64,000 nt of DNA, taken from contig JAKPDK010000184.1 in NCBI GenBank assembly GCA_029552745.1, forward strand, positions 434,001-498,000. The letters run 5' to 3'. The translations under genes and the position numbers were made by a program. Positions 5,854 to 55,202 of this stretch are shown in pieces; position 1 is the first letter of the stretch, and every line of letters begins with the position of its first letter. The notes beneath the pieces are model-generated. The model was not told where the DNA came from, made no database searches, and was given only the letters and a program-made list of their open reading frames with translations. Source of the stretch: Candidatus Hydrogenedentota bacterium (lineage in GTDB: Bacteria; Hydrogenedentota; Hydrogenedentia; Hydrogenedentales; SLHB01).

Positions 5854-5881
5854 TGAGATTTCCGAACCATAAACATTTCGG

Positions 5882-5887
5882 TATAAT
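5882..5887 (+). promoter_or_regulatory. -10 hexamer TATAAT, possible leaderless start
   Basis: A perfect TATAAT lies only nine bases before the ATG at 5897, so transcription would begin at or within a few bases of the start codon. No Shine-Dalgarno sequence precedes that ATG. This fits a leaderless mRNA. No good -35 is visible at 17 bases; the repeat end GGACTTAT lies 31 bases upstream of the hexamer. Confidence 0.45.
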
Positions 5888-5896
5888 CGGGGTTGT

Positions 5897-6763
5897 ATGA
5901 ATGGAGAAGACTCTGACGTCACGAAACCTAAGGTATCGGTGATTATCCCTTCCCGGGATGGCTATCGAAATGGAGCGGTGCCACGTTTGCTCGAGAGCGT
6001 CACGCGGCAGACGCTGACCGACTACGAAATTCACCTCGTCAAAGGGGTATCGCCACAAGGAAAGGCCATTAACCAGGCCGCAGCAGCAGCAAGAGGCGAA
6101 GCGCTCATTATCCTCGACGACGATTCCTGCCTAGCCAATGAAAAGGTGTTTGATCAGCTTGTCTCCGCGCTTGAAAAGGACCCCACTATAGGAATGGCAG
6201 GTGCAAGCATTCAGATGCCTCCCGATGCAAACCCATTTCAACGACGCGCTGCAAAGCAATTCCCGCGATTTAACATGCCTGAAGTCAGCGAAATAACCGA
6301 CAGCGACTTTGCGTGTCACGGCTGTTGCGCCATCCCGCGTAGGGTATTCCAAGAAGTTGGAGGCGAACGAGAAGATCTCATTCGTGGTCTCGACCCTGAC
6401 TTGCGTGTGCGTCTGCGTTCCGCCGGTTATCGCGTCGTATTAATACCGAATGCAGTGGCTTACCACCCCCTACCTGAAAACTGGCGAGCGTTACTCCGCA
6501 TGTTTTTTCGAAACGGCTTCGGTAGCGCCTACGCACGGAAGTTTCATCCCGACAGCGTGTACGAAACTCACGAACGCCTGGATGCCACCTCTTTCCGTTC
6601 CCGTCGGTCTTTCTTTTTTCGCCTTGTCCGCTTTCCTTTCCGTCTGATGACTGCACTGCTACAGGGACAGCTCATTCGTTTCGCAGCGTACACGGCCTAT
6701 GCGTGCGGCTACCTTTGGGGCTGGTTCCAAGCAACTCCTTCGGCGCTCGGAGAGGGCAGATGA
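5897..6763 (+). CDS. Family 2 glycosyltransferase
   Basis: GT-A fold glycosyltransferase, 288 residues. KVSVIIPSRDGYRNG starts the nucleotide-binding half, and LIILDDDSCLA near residues 71-80 supplies the metal/nucleotide-sugar Asp motif. CHGCCAIPRRVFQEVGG followed by GLDPDLRVRLRSAGYRV (about 137-175) is the acceptor-side region typical of GT2 enzymes (the ED/D acceptor motif is represented by DPDLR). The C-terminal 30 residues are hydrophobic (ALLQGQLIRFAAYTAY...) and probably membrane associated. The stop codon overlaps the ATG of a polysaccharide deacetylase (ATGA at 6760), so the two are translationally coupled and likely build or trim the same surface polysaccharide. A TATAAT lies only 9 bases upstream and there is no Shine-Dalgarno sequence. 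Confidence 0.9.
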   Translation: MNGEDSDVTKPKVSVIIPSRDGYRNGAVPRLLESVTRQTLTDYEIHLVKGVSPQGKAINQAAAAARGEALIILDDDSCLANEKVFDQLVSALEKDPTIGMAGASIQMPPDANPFQRRAAKQFPRFNMPEVSEITDSDFACHGCCAIPRRVFQEVGGEREDLIRGLDPDLRVRLRSAGYRVVLIPNAVAYHPLPENWRALLRMFFRNGFGSAYARKFHPDSVYETHERLDATSFRSRRSFFFRLVRFPFRLMTALLQGQLIRFAAYTAYACGYLWGWFQATPSALGEGR

Positions 6764-43594: not shown

Positions 43595-43906
43595 ATCGAC
43601 TGCGAAGACTTTCACAATTTCCCGATAAATCTCCACCGTTGTCGTATATTTTCAGGTTAGAGAATATATTCGTCTTATCATCAACCTCGATTTTCCTAAT
43701 AACAATAGGGTCGTGCCTTAAGGAACACGCTGCCCTTTTCCAAGTTTGCCGTTAAAGAAAATTTGCCGAAAACTCACAACCCGAGACGACTTCGTGCAGC
43801 TGATCCTTTGAAGGCTTTCTGCGATTATGTAAATGTGATGACATTTGCTATCATAGTGACTCGTTCAATCAATTCTTGCTGAGACATGAGTAAAGGAGAT
43901 TTGTTC
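43571..43906. other. Divergent spacer between dtxR and the CocE-like gene
   Basis: AT-rich, about 330 bases, with no supported gene and no repeat. Shared upstream region for two divergent transcription units. Confidence 0.55.
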
Positions 43907-45574
43907 ATGCGCTTCCAAAAATTTGTCCAATTCAATCTGCATCGTTTCATCCTCGTGAATCTAATTGCCATAACTATCGGGCTACTGCAATGCCAGCCAG
44001 CAGTCGCCGAAAAGGTGATGATTCCCATGCGAGATGGCGTCAAGCTGGCAGCGGACTACTATTTGCCTGCCGGCGAAGGCCCCTTCCCGGTGGTGTTGTC
44101 GCGTTCGGTGTATGGTCGAAACCCGGTGTTCGCGCCTATTTTCACGGGCATGGGAATGGTGTATATCGTACAAGATACCCGCGGCAGAGGCGACAGCGAA
44201 GGTAAGGACACCATGTTCGCCGACGATGGTTGGGGTGATCTTCAAGACGGTGCAGATACGGTGGCATGGATCTTGGAGCAGCCGTGGTGTAATGGGAAAA
44301 TAGGCACATTCGGCCCATCGGCGTTGAGCATTGTTCAGGTGCTCATGGCGCCAGCAACCCCGCGTCTGACGTGTCAAGTCATCTGGGTCGCGTCGTGCGA
44401 TTTCTACGGACAATTGAGCTATCAGGGCGGTGTGTGGCGCAAGGCACTCTGTGAAGATTGGCTAAATCAAGTGAAGAGCCCCCATATCATCGAGCTCTGG
44501 AAAAGCCATCCCACAAAAGACGATTTCTGGAAAAAGTTTGAAGCGTCTGCCCAGGCAAGTCGAGTCCATGCCCCGGCGCTTCACGTCGGTGGTTGGTGGG
44601 ACATTTTTCAACAGGGTACCATCGACAATTTCGTTACCCGACAAAACCAGGGTGGGGAAGGCGCAAAAGGCAATCAGCAGTTAATCTTGGGACCCTGGCT
44701 TCACGGCCCCGTTAAGAAACCCGGCGACCTTACCATGCCGGACAATTTCCAATACGACTTCACGGATCATTCCAAACGATTTTTTGAATATTGGTTAGCG
44801 GGTAAAGACAACGGGGTGATGAATGAACCGCCCGTTCGCTACTACACATTGGGCGATGTAAAAGACCCATCAGCCCCAGGAAATGAGTGGCGAACCGCAA
44901 CAACATGGCCTCCCTTTCCCACAGTAGCGACCCCATATTATCTGAAAGCCGACGGCTCTCTCGATACCGCAAAACCCACAGACGAAAAATCAAGTCTCAC
45001 GTTCAAGTATGACCCGGCAAATCCCTGCCCGACGAAAGGAGGCGCAGAACTGACGATACCTGCGGGTCCGTTTGATCAACGAGCCATTGGGGAACGCGCT
45101 GACGTTTTAAAGTTTGCTACCCCGGTGCTGGAACAACCGGTTGAAGTGACCGGACGAGTCAAAGTAAAGTTGTATGTATCTTCCGATGCACCCGACACAG
45201 ACTTTACCGCAAAATTGATTGATATTTATCCGGATGGTAGCGAGATTCTGATGTTAGACGGTATCCAGCGCGTAAAATATCGTAACGGTTTTGAAAAAGC
45301 CGAACCTCTGCCCATAGGCGAGATAGGCGAGATCGAAATTGACCTCTGGTCAATCAGCCTGATTTTCAACAAGGGACACCGGATTGGACTGCACATATCC
45401 AGCAGCAATTACCCCCGATTCGAGGTTAATCCCAACACGGGCGACGACTTCCCGCCCAAAGAAGGCGAAATGCGAGTTGCCCAGAATACCGTACATTTGA
45501 ATAGTCTCCGTCCTAGTGCCTTGATCTTGCCTATACCTGAAAAAGATGCCGAGCATGCCGCGGCGGAGAAGTAA
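43907..45574 (+). CDS. CocE/NonD-family alpha/beta hydrolase, exported
   Basis: Peptidase S15/CocE hydrolase of 555 residues. ATG at 43907 has AAAGGAGA 8 bases before and is followed by a signal peptide (NLIAITIGLLQCQPAVA). Typical blocks: PMRDGVKLAADYYLPAGEG, DTRGRGDSEG and a C-terminal jelly-roll XPP-C domain (ELTIPAGPFDQRA, ATPVLEQPVEVTGRVKVKLY). The nucleophile region reads FGPSALSIVQ where CocE usually has GxSYxG, so the catalytic Ser is probably in GPSAL, a variant. The acid and base are likely in 'DTDFTAKLIDIYPDG' and nearby His. Relatives are glutaryl-7-ACA acylase, cocaine esterase and X-Pro peptidases; the real substrate is unknown. Its stop overlaps the next gene by 29 bases. Confidence 0.8.
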   Translation: MRFQKFVQFNLHRFILVNLIAITIGLLQCQPAVAEKVMIPMRDGVKLAADYYLPAGEGPFPVVLSRSVYGRNPVFAPIFTGMGMVYIVQDTRGRGDSEGKDTMFADDGWGDLQDGADTVAWILEQPWCNGKIGTFGPSALSIVQVLMAPATPRLTCQVIWVASCDFYGQLSYQGGVWRKALCEDWLNQVKSPHIIELWKSHPTKDDFWKKFEASAQASRVHAPALHVGGWWDIFQQGTIDNFVTRQNQGGEGAKGNQQLILGPWLHGPVKKPGDLTMPDNFQYDFTDHSKRFFEYWLAGKDNGVMNEPPVRYYTLGDVKDPSAPGNEWRTATTWPPFPTVATPYYLKADGSLDTAKPTDEKSSLTFKYDPANPCPTKGGAELTIPAGPFDQRAIGERADVLKFATPVLEQPVEVTGRVKVKLYVSSDAPDTDFTAKLIDIYPDGSEILMLDGIQRVKYRNGFEKAEPLPIGEIGEIEIDLWSISLIFNKGHRIGLHISSSNYPRFEVNPNTGDDFPPKEGEMRVAQNTVHLNSLRPSALILPIPEKDAEHAAAEK

Positions 45575-46559
45575 TACACGAGACACATCGCGCGTCCACT
45601 CGAGAGAGAGCGGCTTCGCCCCCAAAATCCGTTGGGGCAAGTTTGACCCCATGCTCGACTACTGGGGCAGAGTCATTCCTCGATTCTATCGGTTAGAGAC
45701 CTTTGCGCAAGCGCTGGAAGGCGTCATCGCAACTCATGACCGTTTTTTCATTCCGAGCATTCAACAAGTGCTTGGACCTGCCCCAGTTGTCGCTCTCAAT
45801 ATAGAACTCTTTCAAGAAGGCGCCTACCAGTTGATCTTTCGTATCCGCGCCTTCAACCAAAAACGAAAAGAGGCGACCTTTGCACTGGTGGTAGCAAAAC
45901 AAGAAGGAGTGGTGAGCCGCACAGCCGAAACGGAACACCGAAACCTGACCCGACTGCACCGCCGTGCACCGGACATCGTTGTCAAACCCTATCTGGGAGG
46001 AATCGTTTTTCTCCCCGACCGACATGGCCGCCCCGAAAAAGGACGTAAACTCTACGTGTACCTCACCCAGTGGTTGACGGGATTCCATGAGCTTGGGATC
46101 GACCGTTCTCACCAGTTTTTCATCAACACGCGCACCCCTCACCTGTTTTCGAAAACCGAGACGGAAGAACTGAAGGCGCAAATCGTGGAGATTATCTTCC
46201 GTCTCTATGACCCCGAAAAGTGCTCCAGCATCGAGATGCCACAAATTGCCTCGGGCGACTTCGTCGTTACCCCCGCAAATCGGAAGCCGCTGAAACTCAA
46301 GCTCATCGCGTGTCGGCGCATCCTCTCTCGAGTGGAACCGGAAACCCTAATTGACCAAATTGTGCACACAGAATGGGATTGGGGCGGGCGACCGTTCCGG
46401 ATTGCACCTGAGGAACCTCAACATTGCGTAGAAGCCATGATTCGTGCTGTGGGAAAAGACCTTGCACGAGGTTGGCTCGAGCGCTACCGCGAATCCCTCA
46501 CTGCCGGTGCATATCCCGCATCGCCTTACGCCGAAGAGATCTGCCGAGCATCTCTTTGA
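45546..46559 (+). CDS. Unknown protein, possibly a degenerate kinase-fold (APH-like) protein
   Basis: A 337-residue cytoplasmic protein with no close family that I can name. The order of motifs suggests a kinase-like bilobed fold: a Lys in a beta strand (FALVVAKQEGVV), an alpha-C-type Glu (TAETEHRNLTRLHR), strand-hinge LYVYLTQWLTGFHEL, and much later ASGDFVVTPAN where aminoglycoside phosphotransferases have HGDxxxxN. The usual DxD/DFG metal motif is not clear (KLKLIACRRIL), so it may be inactive or divergent. This reading is inference. Its start overlaps the CocE gene (an ATG at 45555 is equally likely) and the gene ends just before the radical-SAM-like/GT2 gene, so the pair is probably one operon. 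Confidence 0.55.
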   Translation: MPSMPRRRSNTRDTSRVHSRESGFAPKIRWGKFDPMLDYWGRVIPRFYRLETFAQALEGVIATHDRFFIPSIQQVLGPAPVVALNIELFQEGAYQLIFRIRAFNQKRKEATFALVVAKQEGVVSRTAETEHRNLTRLHRRAPDIVVKPYLGGIVFLPDRHGRPEKGRKLYVYLTQWLTGFHELGIDRSHQFFINTRTPHLFSKTETEELKAQIVEIIFRLYDPEKCSSIEMPQIASGDFVVTPANRKPLKLKLIACRRILSRVEPETLIDQIVHTEWDWGGRPFRIAPEEPQHCVEAMIRAVGKDLARGWLERYRESLTAGAYPASPYAEEICRASL

Positions 46560-46614
46560 AACGTCTTCACCTTCCGGCTATAGTCAAAATCATGGCATAC
46601 GCGGAGGTAACAAC

Positions 46615-48942
46615 GTGATTCAGCCTTACCCCGAACTGAACCCAGCACCCACACGTGGGATCGTCTGTACGTATAACAGCAACGATAACCTCTTGGCTCC
46701 CTCTGATGTCGAACGCTGGATCCGTCTGACCAGACTGGCTTTCAAGACTGCCAAAATAGATGTGGTAGTCAATACCGTCTCTGCCCCGTGGGTGAACCGA
46801 TGGCTCCTCTTCGCTGAATCGTTGGACGTTCGCCTGTCGGTACGCACCCACAGCGAGGAGTGTCTTCAGCATGTCCCGACGTGGGCGAAGCGGGGCTTGT
46901 TGGATGTTCTGCTCGTTCTCGAAAATAACCGTTGGGAAAATGCCTTGCCGAGATTGGAACACTGGAAGAAAGCCGAAGTTCCCCTCCGAATTGAATGGGT
47001 AGTGCGCAGTTGCGGCCGAAGCCGCTGGCAGGAAGCGCTCTCCCGATTCCGAGATTATAACGTGCGGCGCGTTGATATAGTTCTCACAGACCCTCTAATA
47101 GCCCCACACGCTCAAATGGCTTCTCCTGCGCCCCTGGTTCCCGAGATCTTCCAAGAAGCCACAGAGTTTGCCGAAGCGTTGCACACCACCGAAATCGAAT
47201 GCAATCTCCTGGATATCCCGTTTTGTGCCGTTGGTGAAGCCTCACGCCCGTTTGTCGTAAATTCCCCCCAGCGTATTTTGGAACACGGGTTTTATGAACA
47301 AGCGTCCCATGCCCTCGCAGTTAAAATCTTCAACATGGGGACTTTGCGCGCCCGTCTCGTTTTGCAAATGCTTCTGGGACAATACGCCTCTTATGGCGAT
47401 CCTATCGATCGGAAGCTTCTACCATGGATTTTGGATCATCCTTGGATTCGCGCCCGCGTCCTGGCGGCGAAAAAGCTTAGCCGTCTCCTGCCATGGTTTT
47501 CAAAGTCACAGGAGCCAGTTCCCCCGGCTGCTTCTGCGCCACGTACCAAGACAACATTGCCGGAGGAATGCCGGCTCTGTGCCCTTCGGCGTATCTGTGA
47601 CCACGCCGATACACTTCCCAGAACGGTCCGATTTGAGAGACGCACCGTACAAGGAGAACGGGTTGTTGACCCTCTAACGTACAGGACGAGAAGAATTGTT
47701 TATCAAGATGCAGTTGACCAAGAACGTCAGAAAACGGTCACGCATTACAAAGACCTGGTGGAAGAAGCCCGTCGTGTCATATCTAGTAGACCGCCGGACA
47801 TCCAAGTGGGATCCTTGGATTACCGTATTGAAGGGCACTGGGCGTTACAACTACCCGACAGCGTCCGCTGGTTTTCGATAAGTCACACGGAAAAAACCTC
47901 GACGCCTTTGGCACGCCTCCAACCCCCTTTTACTTTGACGGCAAGTTTCGGCAGCGGTATCGCCGACTTTATTGGTTTCAGTTTTGGCAGACACCGTAAG
48001 ATCCTTACCCCCATGACGGCTTTTTCTCACCAGTTGACCTTGCATGTGGCGAAAGATGGTCGCTATGTGTTTCTACGCGACAACATTCCCGTGTCACCAA
48101 CAATCTTCAGCGGTCTCTATTACGTGCCGGAACGTCTGAATGGCGTGCTGGAACCTGCCCTGTCCATTTGGAATATCGATGACGTCATCGGCACGCAGGG
48201 GATTGGAATCTGGGTATCGTCACAGAACCTTCCCGCGCCAAACACAGTCAAATATAGCGTCATCATCGTATGCGCGCGGTACGCCCGCCGTCTTCAAGCT
48301 GCATTACTGAATCTCGCCCATCAACAAGGAATACCTCTCAATGCCATTGAGGTGATCGTGGCTTATATCCCAGGTTTAGACGCCGTAGAAGACGTACTCA
48401 ATAGCATAGAAAAAGTCTGCCCCTCGCTCCGAATCGTACGCGCCCCGTTTTCCTCTGAAGATGCCGCCGCCAAGGGCTTCCTGATCAACGAGTCCGTGAA
48501 GATGGCTTCCGGCGAATGGATCGTACTGCTTGATGCCGATATCTTGTTGCCGCCCACCTGGTTTGCCGCGATGGAAAACGTGCCGGAAAATGTGTCTTTT
48601 GTCATTCCTGACGGACGGAAGATGCTATCCCCAGATATCACAGCTCGCATCCTCCTCGGATTCATTCATCCCTGGATGGAATGGGAAAGTTTGATAAATG
48701 CCCAAGGAGAATATCGGCGGGTAGAAGTCGACGGTACTCCTATCGGGTACTGTCAGTGCGTGCGGAAACATTGCTTCGATCAGGTGCAATATGAAGAAAT
48801 GCAACATTTCGAAGGAGCGGACTGGCGCTTCGGCAAAGAGATCCGGGAAAAATTCGGCAGGGAATTGCGTTTGAGCGGTATTCCTGTAATCCATTTAGAC
48901 CATGGGGGCAGCCACTGGTACGGATCAGCTACCCATTGGTAA
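46615..48942 (+). CDS. Fusion of a degenerate radical-SAM-like barrel with a family 2 glycosyltransferase
   Basis: A 775-residue protein starting at a GTG with GGAGGT six bases before it. Residues 1-330 look like a radical-SAM-type TIM barrel (VCTYNSNDNLLAPSDVERWI, LLDVLLVLENNRWENALPRL) with the recurring 'IECNLLDIPFCAVGE' and a SPASM-like Cys group CRLCALRRICDH (C-x2-C-x5-C), but without the defining CX3CX2C that binds the SAM cluster. Residues 330-540 are of unknown fold. From about 545 a GT-A domain follows (YSVIIVCARYARRLQAALLN, MASGEWIVLLDADILLPPTW) with the metal-binding DAD. Such a fusion is not known to me. Function unknown; modification of a surface polymer is possible. The upstream partner may be kinase-like. 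Confidence 0.75.
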   Translation: MIQPYPELNPAPTRGIVCTYNSNDNLLAPSDVERWIRLTRLAFKTAKIDVVVNTVSAPWVNRWLLFAESLDVRLSVRTHSEECLQHVPTWAKRGLLDVLLVLENNRWENALPRLEHWKKAEVPLRIEWVVRSCGRSRWQEALSRFRDYNVRRVDIVLTDPLIAPHAQMASPAPLVPEIFQEATEFAEALHTTEIECNLLDIPFCAVGEASRPFVVNSPQRILEHGFYEQASHALAVKIFNMGTLRARLVLQMLLGQYASYGDPIDRKLLPWILDHPWIRARVLAAKKLSRLLPWFSKSQEPVPPAASAPRTKTTLPEECRLCALRRICDHADTLPRTVRFERRTVQGERVVDPLTYRTRRIVYQDAVDQERQKTVTHYKDLVEEARRVISSRPPDIQVGSLDYRIEGHWALQLPDSVRWFSISHTEKTSTPLARLQPPFTLTASFGSGIADFIGFSFGRHRKILTPMTAFSHQLTLHVAKDGRYVFLRDNIPVSPTIFSGLYYVPERLNGVLEPALSIWNIDDVIGTQGIGIWVSSQNLPAPNTVKYSVIIVCARYARRLQAALLNLAHQQGIPLNAIEVIVAYIPGLDAVEDVLNSIEKVCPSLRIVRAPFSSEDAAAKGFLINESVKMASGEWIVLLDADILLPPTWFAAMENVPENVSFVIPDGRKMLSPDITARILLGFIHPWMEWESLINAQGEYRRVEVDGTPIGYCQCVRKHCFDQVQYEEMQHFEGADWRFGKEIREKFGRELRLSGIPVIHLDHGGSHWYGSATHW

Positions 48943-52463: not shown

Positions 52464-52514
52464 ACCTTATTTTTGTTTGGTCGTGTTTGTCTGTTGCCGG
52501 GAAAGGAGGGAGTG

Positions 52515-55202
52515 GTGTCTTGTTTTTCTGTCTGTCTTTTAGGGTTATTTGTTGCCGTCGAATTACCACAATGGGACTTTACCTCAAAAGATGAGTTGTC
52601 CGAATGGGTTCCCAATGCACAGTTATCCAACGTCACGGTTGCCGACGGCATCTTGTCTGCGGACGGGGCGGATTGGGACGCTTTCTTTCTAAATCGGTCG
52701 GTATCGTTTCCTGCTACGCCGTATCAGTATGTCGTGCTGCGTATCCGCGCTTCCCGGGGAGGCCTGGCGGAGTTGTTTTGGTCAGGAAGTCTGGAAGGGG
52801 AGTATGGTGGCCTTAGCGGTTCCAAGCGAGTGCAATTTGCCATACCCGACGATCAGCAATGGCACGAACTTGTCGTGTTCCCTTTCTGGCACACAGAGCA
52901 GCAGATACGCCAGTTACGGTTAGACCTGTATGCCGGCAGTCATTTTGAGATCGATTGGATCAAAGGGAAGAGCTGGGACCAAGAGGCGAAGCCGACAGTT
53001 CGTTATTCATGGACATTTACTGAGGATGCGTCTTCCTGGCAGATACATCCCGAATGTGAAGAGTTCTTCGCCCCGCCTGTGAAGCTCGACGTCTCGGAAA
53101 GACTTTGGGTGACGGTACGGGCTTGTGCAAACGCCAGCTCGACCGCAGCGCTGCTTTGGGCAACGGAACAGAGCGCCGGATTAAATCAACAGTCCTTTTC
53201 GTTGCGCGGCGACGGAAAATGGCACACGTACAATCTCGATATGGCGGGTATCAAGACATGGAAAAGTCCGGTTGTGGCGCTGGGTATCCGCCTACCGAAA
53301 GCGGAAGGAGTGGCGCTGGAATCAATAAGCATCCAAGAAACCCCTGCGGGAGACGCCGACCCCATAGTGACCTATTTTGGGTTTGTTGACGCCCCGAACC
53401 GGGCACAAACGGTGCGGCGTGTGATGCTGCGGGTAGCGAATCATGGCGGCGCCGATGCGGTGCTGGCTAGTGGATCTTTGCACTTGCCTTCAGACATGAA
53501 GTTGGTCGCAGATACAGACATATCTTTCCCGGTCAAGATTGCCTTTGGCGAGTATGTGGATCTCGTTTGGCAACTGGAAGCGGCGCGTGCCGGGGTGTAC
53601 CCCGTCACGGCAAATCTTGAGGGAACGAATATGCCGGAAGACATCAAAACCACGCTGCGCTTTGAAGATGCCATCCAGGTATCTCCGTCGGATTACGTTC
53701 CTCCACCCCAACCCGTTCCGACGTCGGTCAAGGTTTGTACCTACTACTTCCCGGGATGGGACACGCCCGCAAAATGGGATTGCATCCGTGAAGTGGCTCC
53801 GAATCGCAAACCGGTGCTTGGGTATTATGACGAAGGCAATCCGGAATGTGTGGATTGGCAAATCAAGTGGGCGGTGGAAAATGGAATCAGTTGTTTTCTG
53901 GTGGATTGGTACTGGCAGCAGGGAACGCAGCATTTAACCCACTGGTTTGAAGCCTATCGAAAAGCACGTTACCGCGACTATTTGAATGTGGCGATCATGT
54001 GGGCAAACCACAATGCACCCGACACACATTCCGCCGACGATTGGCGCGCGGTGACCAAGGAATGGATCGAGCGCTACTTTTCCCTTCCCTCCTATTTTCG
54101 GATCGACGGCAAACCCGCGGTGTTCATTTGGAATCCGAATGGTTTGCGCAGCGATTTGGAGAAACGTTCGGAAAGTGTCCGGGATTGCCTGGCAGAATCC
54201 CAACGCATGGCACGAGATGCTGGGTATGAAGGGATCACCTTTGTTGCGATGGGATATGACTTCAGTGGCGCTCAGATGAATCGTTTGCGGGAAGAAGGCT
54301 ACAAAGGTCTGACCACGTACCACGAGTGGGGCGCCGCGGTGGACAGTGCCTTCGCTGCCCGTCGAATGAGTTTCGAGCAGGTGGTGCGTCTTGCACCGAC
54401 AGCGTGGGAAAGGATTAACACCAGCGCCGGTGATTTAACCTACTATCCCGTAGTAGATACCGGCTGGGACTCTAGGCCTTGGCACGGCGACAATTCGCTC
54501 GTAATTGAAGGGCGCTCCCCCGAGTTGTTTGAGGCTTTGCTTCGTGCCGCAAAAGCATTTTGCGAAACCCATAAAAAAGACCTTGTGGTACTTGGACCCT
54601 GGAATGAGTGGGGCGAAGGAAGCTACATCGAACCGTGCACGGAATTCGGTTTTGATATGTTGGAACGGGTGCGCACGGTTTTTGCCGCATGTTCGCCAGA
54701 TACGTTTCCGACGAATATCGCTCCGTGTGATGTAGGACGGGGTCCCTATGACTTTCCACCGCGGCAACCCAAGACCGCGTGGACATTTGAGCATGATTCC
54801 GAAGGGTGGGCAGCGATCATGAACACCCAAGGGCTCCGTGCGGAGGCTGGGACACTACGTTTCCGGACGCTATCCAGCGATGCCGCTTTGATCACCCGGT
54901 TGGACCAGATCTCTGCGGAAGATTTCTCCGGTGTGCACCTACGGATGAGTGTGGCTCCGTCTGTCCCGACCTCAAAGGCAACGGGGCAAGTTTTCTGGTC
55001 GTTAGGAGGTGCAGAGCTTTCGGAAGCGTCCAGTGTCACTTTTGAAGTGCTACCTGATGGAGAAATGCACGACTACAACGTGGTTTTGCAAGGAAACCCC
55101 CGTTGGCGCGGCAGGATAGCCTCGTTGCGATTCGACCCGTGTGACCTTGCCCAGGCGGACGTTGTGATTGACGAGATAGGTTTCCTGCGACAAGACAAAT
55201 GA
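52515..55202 (+). CDS. Secreted GH99-like (WbsX-type) glycoside hydrolase, multidomain
   Basis: An 895-residue protein with a signal peptide (SCFSVCLLGLFVAVELP). Two or three beta-sandwich modules occupy residues 15-385 (galactose-binding-like, e.g. YQYVVLRIRASRGGLAELFW). From about 410, the glycoside hydrolase 99-like TIM barrel (PF14307 type) appears: VKVCTYYFPGWDTPAKWDCI, GISCFLVDWYWQQGTQHLTH, FRIDGKPAVFIWNPNG and VLGPWNEWGEGSYIEPC, which contains the conserved Glu-rich active site. A last beta module ends the protein. The GTG at 52515 is preceded by AAAGGAGGG; upstream TTG at 52473 is an alternative. Probable endo-mannanase-like or related activity; substrate not determinable. Confidence 0.85.
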   Translation: MSCFSVCLLGLFVAVELPQWDFTSKDELSEWVPNAQLSNVTVADGILSADGADWDAFFLNRSVSFPATPYQYVVLRIRASRGGLAELFWSGSLEGEYGGLSGSKRVQFAIPDDQQWHELVVFPFWHTEQQIRQLRLDLYAGSHFEIDWIKGKSWDQEAKPTVRYSWTFTEDASSWQIHPECEEFFAPPVKLDVSERLWVTVRACANASSTAALLWATEQSAGLNQQSFSLRGDGKWHTYNLDMAGIKTWKSPVVALGIRLPKAEGVALESISIQETPAGDADPIVTYFGFVDAPNRAQTVRRVMLRVANHGGADAVLASGSLHLPSDMKLVADTDISFPVKIAFGEYVDLVWQLEAARAGVYPVTANLEGTNMPEDIKTTLRFEDAIQVSPSDYVPPPQPVPTSVKVCTYYFPGWDTPAKWDCIREVAPNRKPVLGYYDEGNPECVDWQIKWAVENGISCFLVDWYWQQGTQHLTHWFEAYRKARYRDYLNVAIMWANHNAPDTHSADDWRAVTKEWIERYFSLPSYFRIDGKPAVFIWNPNGLRSDLEKRSESVRDCLAESQRMARDAGYEGITFVAMGYDFSGAQMNRLREEGYKGLTTYHEWGAAVDSAFAARRMSFEQVVRLAPTAWERINTSAGDLTYYPVVDTGWDSRPWHGDNSLVIEGRSPELFEALLRAAKAFCETHKKDLVVLGPWNEWGEGSYIEPCTEFGFDMLERVRTVFAACSPDTFPTNIAPCDVGRGPYDFPPRQPKTAWTFEHDSEGWAAIMNTQGLRAEAGTLRFRTLSSDAALITRLDQISAEDFSGVHLRMSVAPSVPTSKATGQVFWSLGGAELSEASSVTFEVLPDGEMHDYNVVLQGNPRWRGRIASLRFDPCDLAQADVVIDEIGFLRQDK

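Follow-up and report, generated by a model that had tools for sequence, protein, structure and literature searches.

A disabled radical SAM paralogue fused to a glycosyltransferase, and a pseudokinase-like protein, in a predicted Hydrogenedentota system for glycan assembly and export

A 64,000-nucleotide stretch of DNA from a Candidatus Hydrogenedentota bacterium (contig JAKPDK010000184.1, positions 434,001 to 498,000 of the forward strand; hereafter the window) contains two genes, A and B, which were examined here together with their homologues. With moderate confidence we place both in an undescribed ATP-binding cassette (ABC)-transporter-dependent system for glycan assembly and export, in which a dead paralogue of a radical S-adenosylmethionine (SAM) protein guides a glycosyltransferase. 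Membership of the locus and the origin of the barrel in B are well supported; we infer the type of metal, the contact between B and its intact paralogue (R), the sugar chemistry and the role of A. Both open reading frames lie where the initial annotation, made by reading the sequence, had placed them, apart from a corrected start for B (46615). Its statement that no family could be named for the two genes was borne out for A and for B outside the glycosyltransferase domain, neither of which is covered by a Pfam or NCBIfam family.

The longer reading of B, from a GTG at 46444 (832 aa, overlapping A by 115 bp), was rejected in favour of the GTG at 46615 (775 aa), since the sequence conserved among homologues starts near residue 68 of the 832-aa reading and a GGAGG site lies at 46603-46607; the two genes therefore do not overlap. 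Homologues were collected from draft genomes, using 68 Hydrogenedentota genomes, 38 of them of good quality, and a thin sample of 127 genomes from other phyla. Relatives of B were found in 63 of the 68, including all 38 good-quality genomes, and sometimes in two copies. A is present as a single copy in 48 (31 of the good ones), so these genes are not chance open reading frames. In this thin sample from outside the phylum, G100 was the one genome with a match to B, and none of the 127 had a match to A. A profile scan of wider genome contigs gave, among the matches listed, at least 13 Hydrogenedentota loci together with distant GT2 proteins, and the named close relatives of B among these matches were Candidatus Hydrogenedentota. 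Scanning genome contigs with a single sequence found nothing, and searches of PDB sequences with A returned only chance-level matches.

The most telling result came by way of the neighbouring genes in relatives, where R lies just 5' of B. In hhalign profile comparisons residues 1-395 of B matched the whole of R with a probability of 99.6 and an E-value of 1.3e-23 (99.0 and 8.9e-18 in a repeat comparison). The controls, reversed B and four other protein families, stayed at background, and two other radical SAM families of the neighbourhoods, c6 and c20, aligned to B no better; it is therefore R in particular that B matches. The predicted model contains a partial barrel, (beta-alpha)6, across residues 14-199, with a predicted local distance difference test (pLDDT) score of about 90. 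The CX3CX2C motif is absent from the first 150 residues of all 84 copies of B, as it is from the window copy in the initial annotation. The GGE motif for SAM contact, expected after beta2, is missing from 75 of the 77 readable copies, and the other two fit only a loose pattern in which G-x-E is allowed as well. At the level of sequence it is well supported that the barrel has a radical SAM protein as its ancestor, sharing descent with R, and that it has lost the SAM cluster.

The initial annotation had proposed such a former radical SAM barrel that had lost its cluster. Descent and loss of the SAM cluster stand, but four Cys residues of an auxiliary cluster are mostly kept. The SPASM-like CRLCALRRICDH group which had been pointed out in B is present, and the four Cys align with four of R (256, 375, 378 and 384) that are invariant in that family. 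The complete set (204, 319, 322 and 328 in B) is present in 67 of 84 copies, three further truncated copies keep the remaining three, and about 11 have lost it wholly or almost wholly. On a tree built from the beta and glycosyltransferase domains only, the copies with complete loss map to about four separate positions. Within the phylum, every copy of B that adjoins R (21 of 21) retains the set. That the four Cys are kept or lost together fits one shared metal site. The Pfam SPASM model (PF13186) matched neither B nor R, and four Cys are conserved here against the usual seven. A second group of B paralogues, with HFQD in place of HFED and without the four Cys, follows c6-type radical SAM/SPASM genes, of which there are usually two (genomes G003, G008, G009, G010 and G014; loci L108, L138, L182, L183 and L119).

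The C-terminal part of B is a GT-A glycosyltransferase domain, as had been annotated, and sugar transfer is its predicted activity, judged from its sequence and model. PF00535 scored 25.9 against a cut-off of 23.3, Foldseek returned the GT-A fold, and a DxD motif, the DAD already noted in B, is present in all 80 copies covering the site. Homology between the preceding beta domain and the C-terminus of the Wzt-like ATPase described below was considered and rejected, the hhalign comparison not being significant.

R itself is a genuine radical SAM protein, with a CNxRCxFC motif (CNQRCYFC), a GGEP motif and a match to PF04055. It represents an unnamed family of the same phylum, made up of the PF04055 core and a four-Cys auxiliary region. 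Full-length R is homologous to residues 1-385 of B, the two have the four auxiliary Cys in common and they are operon neighbours; R keeps CX3CX2C and GGEP, whereas B has neither and adds the beta and GT-A domains. In 21 genomes R lies directly 5' of B on the same strand, which a crude model puts at a chance of 5e-5 per genome. Among the 127 genomes of other phyla, G100 and G090 alone gave a match to it. In the latter its neighbours are a second radical SAM gene and genes resembling glycosyltransferases, with no B (L198:9381-10649). In NCBIfam, R matched models of heme, peptide and MoaA enzymes in the core only, and these matches were not used to assign function.

Neighbouring genes were clustered for 53 loci and the window, and tabulated family by family. 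The recurrent order starts with a Wzm-like ABC2 membrane protein and a Wzt-like ATPase; next comes R or a GT2, and then B, which is followed by one or two GT4s and by a protein of about 155 aa. Where A takes part it comes first in the relatives, followed by the Wzm-like gene and the rest. Contiguous examples are A-Wzm-Wzt-GT2-B-GT4-GT4-c4 in G034 and, in another phylum, GT2-Wzm-Wzt-R-B in G100. In the phylum, R or the exporter genes are usually encoded close to B. All 38 good-quality genomes carry the Wzt-like ATPase, the C-terminus of which spans about 450 aa and matches no Pfam family. The combination of Wzm-like and Wzt-like proteins with glycosyltransferases, characteristic of ABC-transporter-dependent O-polysaccharide systems, thus occurs both in the relatives and in G100. 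The surface-polymer modification pathway of the initial annotation is upheld by these neighbours as a setting for surface-glycan assembly and export, while the word modification finds no support. The protein of about 155 aa is conserved and likewise matches nothing in Pfam; in many loci it comes after the GT4 genes (L116:17023-17496 and relatives).

A and B, noted at first as adjacent genes, do not form a tight pair. A directly adjoins B in only three of the 48 genomes that carry it (G000, which is the window genome, G024 and G027), and by our count A joins the wider glycan locus in about 11. The usual partner of B is the intact radical SAM paralogue, which the window lacks. A stands beside or near exporter genes in G034, G036, G037, G042 and the genomes of family f6, and adjoins Wzm/Wzt genes in families f6, f8 and f10. 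Its closeness to the locus has a chance probability of 1.5e-9 under a crude model, the genomes not being independent. In five genomes A is beside a beta-helix protein, and it is absent from seven of the 38 good-quality genomes that carry the exporter. The gene directly 5' of A in the window (43886-45574) and in G067 (L130:7662-9341) encodes an S15 (X-Pro dipeptidyl-peptidase-like) protein. In G040 and G041 that place is taken by a response regulator-SpoIIE gene with a sensor histidine kinase gene before it; both of these signalling genes are near A in G037, and the sensor kinase in G036 (for these genomes, loci L126, L127, L134 and L131).

A model of A built from three sequences (pLDDT 75, predicted template modelling score 0.74) has the bilobal kinase fold of the protein kinase-like superfamily. 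Kinase-fold proteins make up the whole of the Foldseek list shown, with a best E-value of 1.4e-5 and a template modelling (TM) score of only about 0.33, and they include the MLKL and JAK2-JH2 pseudokinases and macrolide phosphotransferases. The first 49 residues are basic, and disordered in the model. The initial annotation had seen in A the motif order of a divergent aminoglycoside phosphotransferase (APH)/kinase fold. The kinase-like fold was recovered by this modelling and fold search; the conserved catalytic Asp was not, and A looks like a pseudokinase rather than an active APH. Among the 38 aligned A sequences the Lys of beta3 (K118, 37 of 38) and the Glu of alpha-C (E130, 36 of 38) are kept. 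No Asp is conserved enough for catalysis, the best candidates being D238 (30 of 38) and D222 (25 of 38), with positions assigned by sequence order. The residue expected to be the Asp of DFG is Cys in 37 of 38, which likewise gives A the look of a pseudokinase. At 337 aa, A has no methyltransferase match in Pfam or NCBIfam and so differs from WbdD-type terminators, which combine a kinase, a methyltransferase and a coiled coil (the last was not computed for A). Coordinates are collected in Table 1.

Table 1. Positions of genes A and B and of their domains and motifs in the window.
Feature	Position	Strand	Basis or conservation
Gene A (337 aa; kinase fold, pseudokinase-like)	45546..46559	+	Open reading frame; found in 48/68 phylum genomes; Foldseek gives kinase folds
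A Lys118, kinase beta3 Lys position	45897..45899	+	Kept in 37/38
A Glu130, kinase alpha-C Glu position	45933..45935	+	Kept in 36/38
A Asp238 (ASGDF), near the Mg-binding Asn of HRDxxxxN	46257..46259	+	Only 30/38; placed by sequence order
A Cys256, expected DFG-Asp position	46311..46313	+	Cys in 37/38; putative placement
Shine-Dalgarno-like GGAGG of B	46603..46607	+	Sequence reading
Gene B (775 aa; pseudo-radical-SAM, beta domain and GT-A glycosyltransferase)	46615..48942	+	Homologue alignment, model, GGAGG site
B residues 1-395, full-length but degenerate paralogue of a radical SAM protein, with (beta-alpha)6 over residues 14-199	46615..47799	+	hhalign to R; DSSP of model
B Cys204 (PFC), candidate auxiliary-cluster ligand 1	47224..47226	+	Aligns with invariant PLC Cys256 of R
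B Cys319-x2-Cys322-x5-Cys328, candidate auxiliary-cluster ligands 2-4	47569..47598	+	Align with invariant Cys375, 378 and 384 of R
B residues 396-534, beta-rich domain	47800..48216	+	Predicted model; GlfT2 (beta domain and GT-A) is the top Foldseek match
B residues 547-760, GT-A glycosyltransferase domain, GT2-like	48253..48894	+	PF00535, Foldseek
B Asp640-Ala-Asp642, DxD metal/nucleotide-sugar motif	48532..48540	+	DxD in 80/80 copies covering the site

In known Wzm/Wzt systems the chain is assembled in the cytoplasm on a carrier lipid and then capped; a module of Wzt reads it, and export follows (PMC11231755, PMC3482155), and assembly of this kind with a carbohydrate-binding module on Wzt is established biology (PMC11231755). 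In the system we propose, R would change a residue on the lipid-linked chain. The dead barrel of B would most likely bind R, or the residue modified by R, and so place that residue in the active site of the glycosyltransferase, whose GT-A domain would extend the chain. The four Cys kept in most copies would hold one auxiliary Fe-S (or other metal) site, and A may be a pseudokinase-like accessory of the same glycan pathway. A fuller version, which we offer tentatively and think unlikely to hold in all its parts, is a class of glycan polymerase in which a dead radical SAM paralogue, still holding an auxiliary Fe-S cluster and paired with R as a heterodimer, steers the glycosyltransferase, so that radical change of a sugar and chain growth are coupled within one complex, with a pseudokinase check before export.

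Several observations weigh against the proposal. The parts are scattered in the window genome, with the exporter genes on contig C106, outside the window, and R and a B paralogue on C36, where the paralogue is accompanied by a GT4 and the small protein and R lies about 19 kb further along. R is not always adjacent to B, and is absent from several families with a Cys-bearing B (f6 and f8). In G100, B adjoins R yet is without these Cys, and its N-terminus does not align with that of B. Of the 50 Foldseek hits listed for B, most are glycosyltransferases and none is a radical SAM enzyme, the barrel fold being read from predicted secondary structure and sequence homology. The barrel might instead be a scaffold for folding or membrane docking, unlinked to the chemistry of R, with the Cys holding a structural zinc. 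Loss of the Cys in about four lineages that retain the glycosyltransferase, and the several genomes with B and no R, are as such a scaffold would have it; we nevertheless find it distinctly doubtful, as R precedes B in 21 genomes, and outside the phylum as well, and the retained Cys are exactly the invariant auxiliary set of R. That R and B make a modified peptide (a ribosomally synthesised and post-translationally modified peptide) rather than a glycan is very improbable. Several of the nearest NCBIfam models to R are peptide maturases, eg HxsC, but all those matches are confined to the core and fall far short of the cut-offs, and the neighbours are glycosyltransferases and a Wzm/Wzt-like exporter.

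Two alternatives concern the role of A. It could have a regulatory function, as a pseudokinase linking a two-component/PP2C (SpoIIE) signal with the export of the glycan, a possibility we view with some doubt. Its position directly 3' of the response regulator-SpoIIE gene and sensor kinase in G040 and G041, the similar genes near it in G037 and G036, and its kinase-inactive motifs would all agree with such a role; this signalling neighbourhood is limited to families f8 and f9, and elsewhere A adjoins the beta-helix protein, the S15 peptidase or B. Alternatively, A could be a chain-terminating kinase like WbdD (precedent in PMC3482155 and PMC11231755), phosphorylating the glycan end, with the long C-terminus of Wzt reading the cap before export. 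The kinase-like fold, the adjoining Wzm/Wzt genes in f6, f8 and f10 and the 450-aa C-terminus are in keeping with this, but we judge it unlikely given the Cys at the DFG-Asp position, the missing catalytic Asp and methyltransferase, and the seven exporter-bearing genomes without A.

Two other genes of the window may be recorded. That at 5873-6760 encodes a GT2 related to the locus family c7 (69.7 bits), and that at 52473-55202 a WbsX/GH99-like protein (PF14307, PF16317) with long flanking regions.

The locus is near-universal in the uncultured phylum Hydrogenedentota and so probably builds a basic envelope polymer. The system offers a testable case of an iron-sulfur pseudoenzyme possibly guiding sugar polymerisation, and it singles out a radical SAM family, so far uncharacterised, that goes with ABC-dependent glycan export. 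To our knowledge, pseudoenzymes derived from radical SAM proteins have been little studied. Among open-licence papers nothing on point was found for pseudo-radical-SAM proteins, for radical SAM with Wzt or for Hydrogenedentota with radical SAM, and neither these papers nor the curated families searched describe a radical SAM pseudoenzyme fused to a glycosyltransferase.

A precedent for a disabled member is TIGR04347, a haloarchaeal pseudo-SAM/SPASM protein which NCBIfam lists as radical SAM-like 'pseudo'. That model names no glycosyltransferase; R matches its core only (62.6 bits against a cut-off of 525), and B gave no match in the NCBIfam scan. The galactofuranosyltransferase GlfT2 supplied the top Foldseek hits for B and likewise has a beta domain before GT-A, but at 12-14% identity and a TM score of 0.19, ie a poor global superposition. 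GlfT2 has no barrel, and B has no Pfam match to any GlfT2 domain. In the publications consulted, the Wzm-Wzt-WbdD O-polysaccharide systems of E. coli O9a and Klebsiella O3 have no radical SAM or pseudo-radical-SAM part, and A is without the methyltransferase and catalytic Asp residues of WbdD. These systems nevertheless resemble the Hydrogenedentota locus in combining glycosyltransferases and a protein of kinase fold with an ABC exporter whose ATPase has a long C-terminus.

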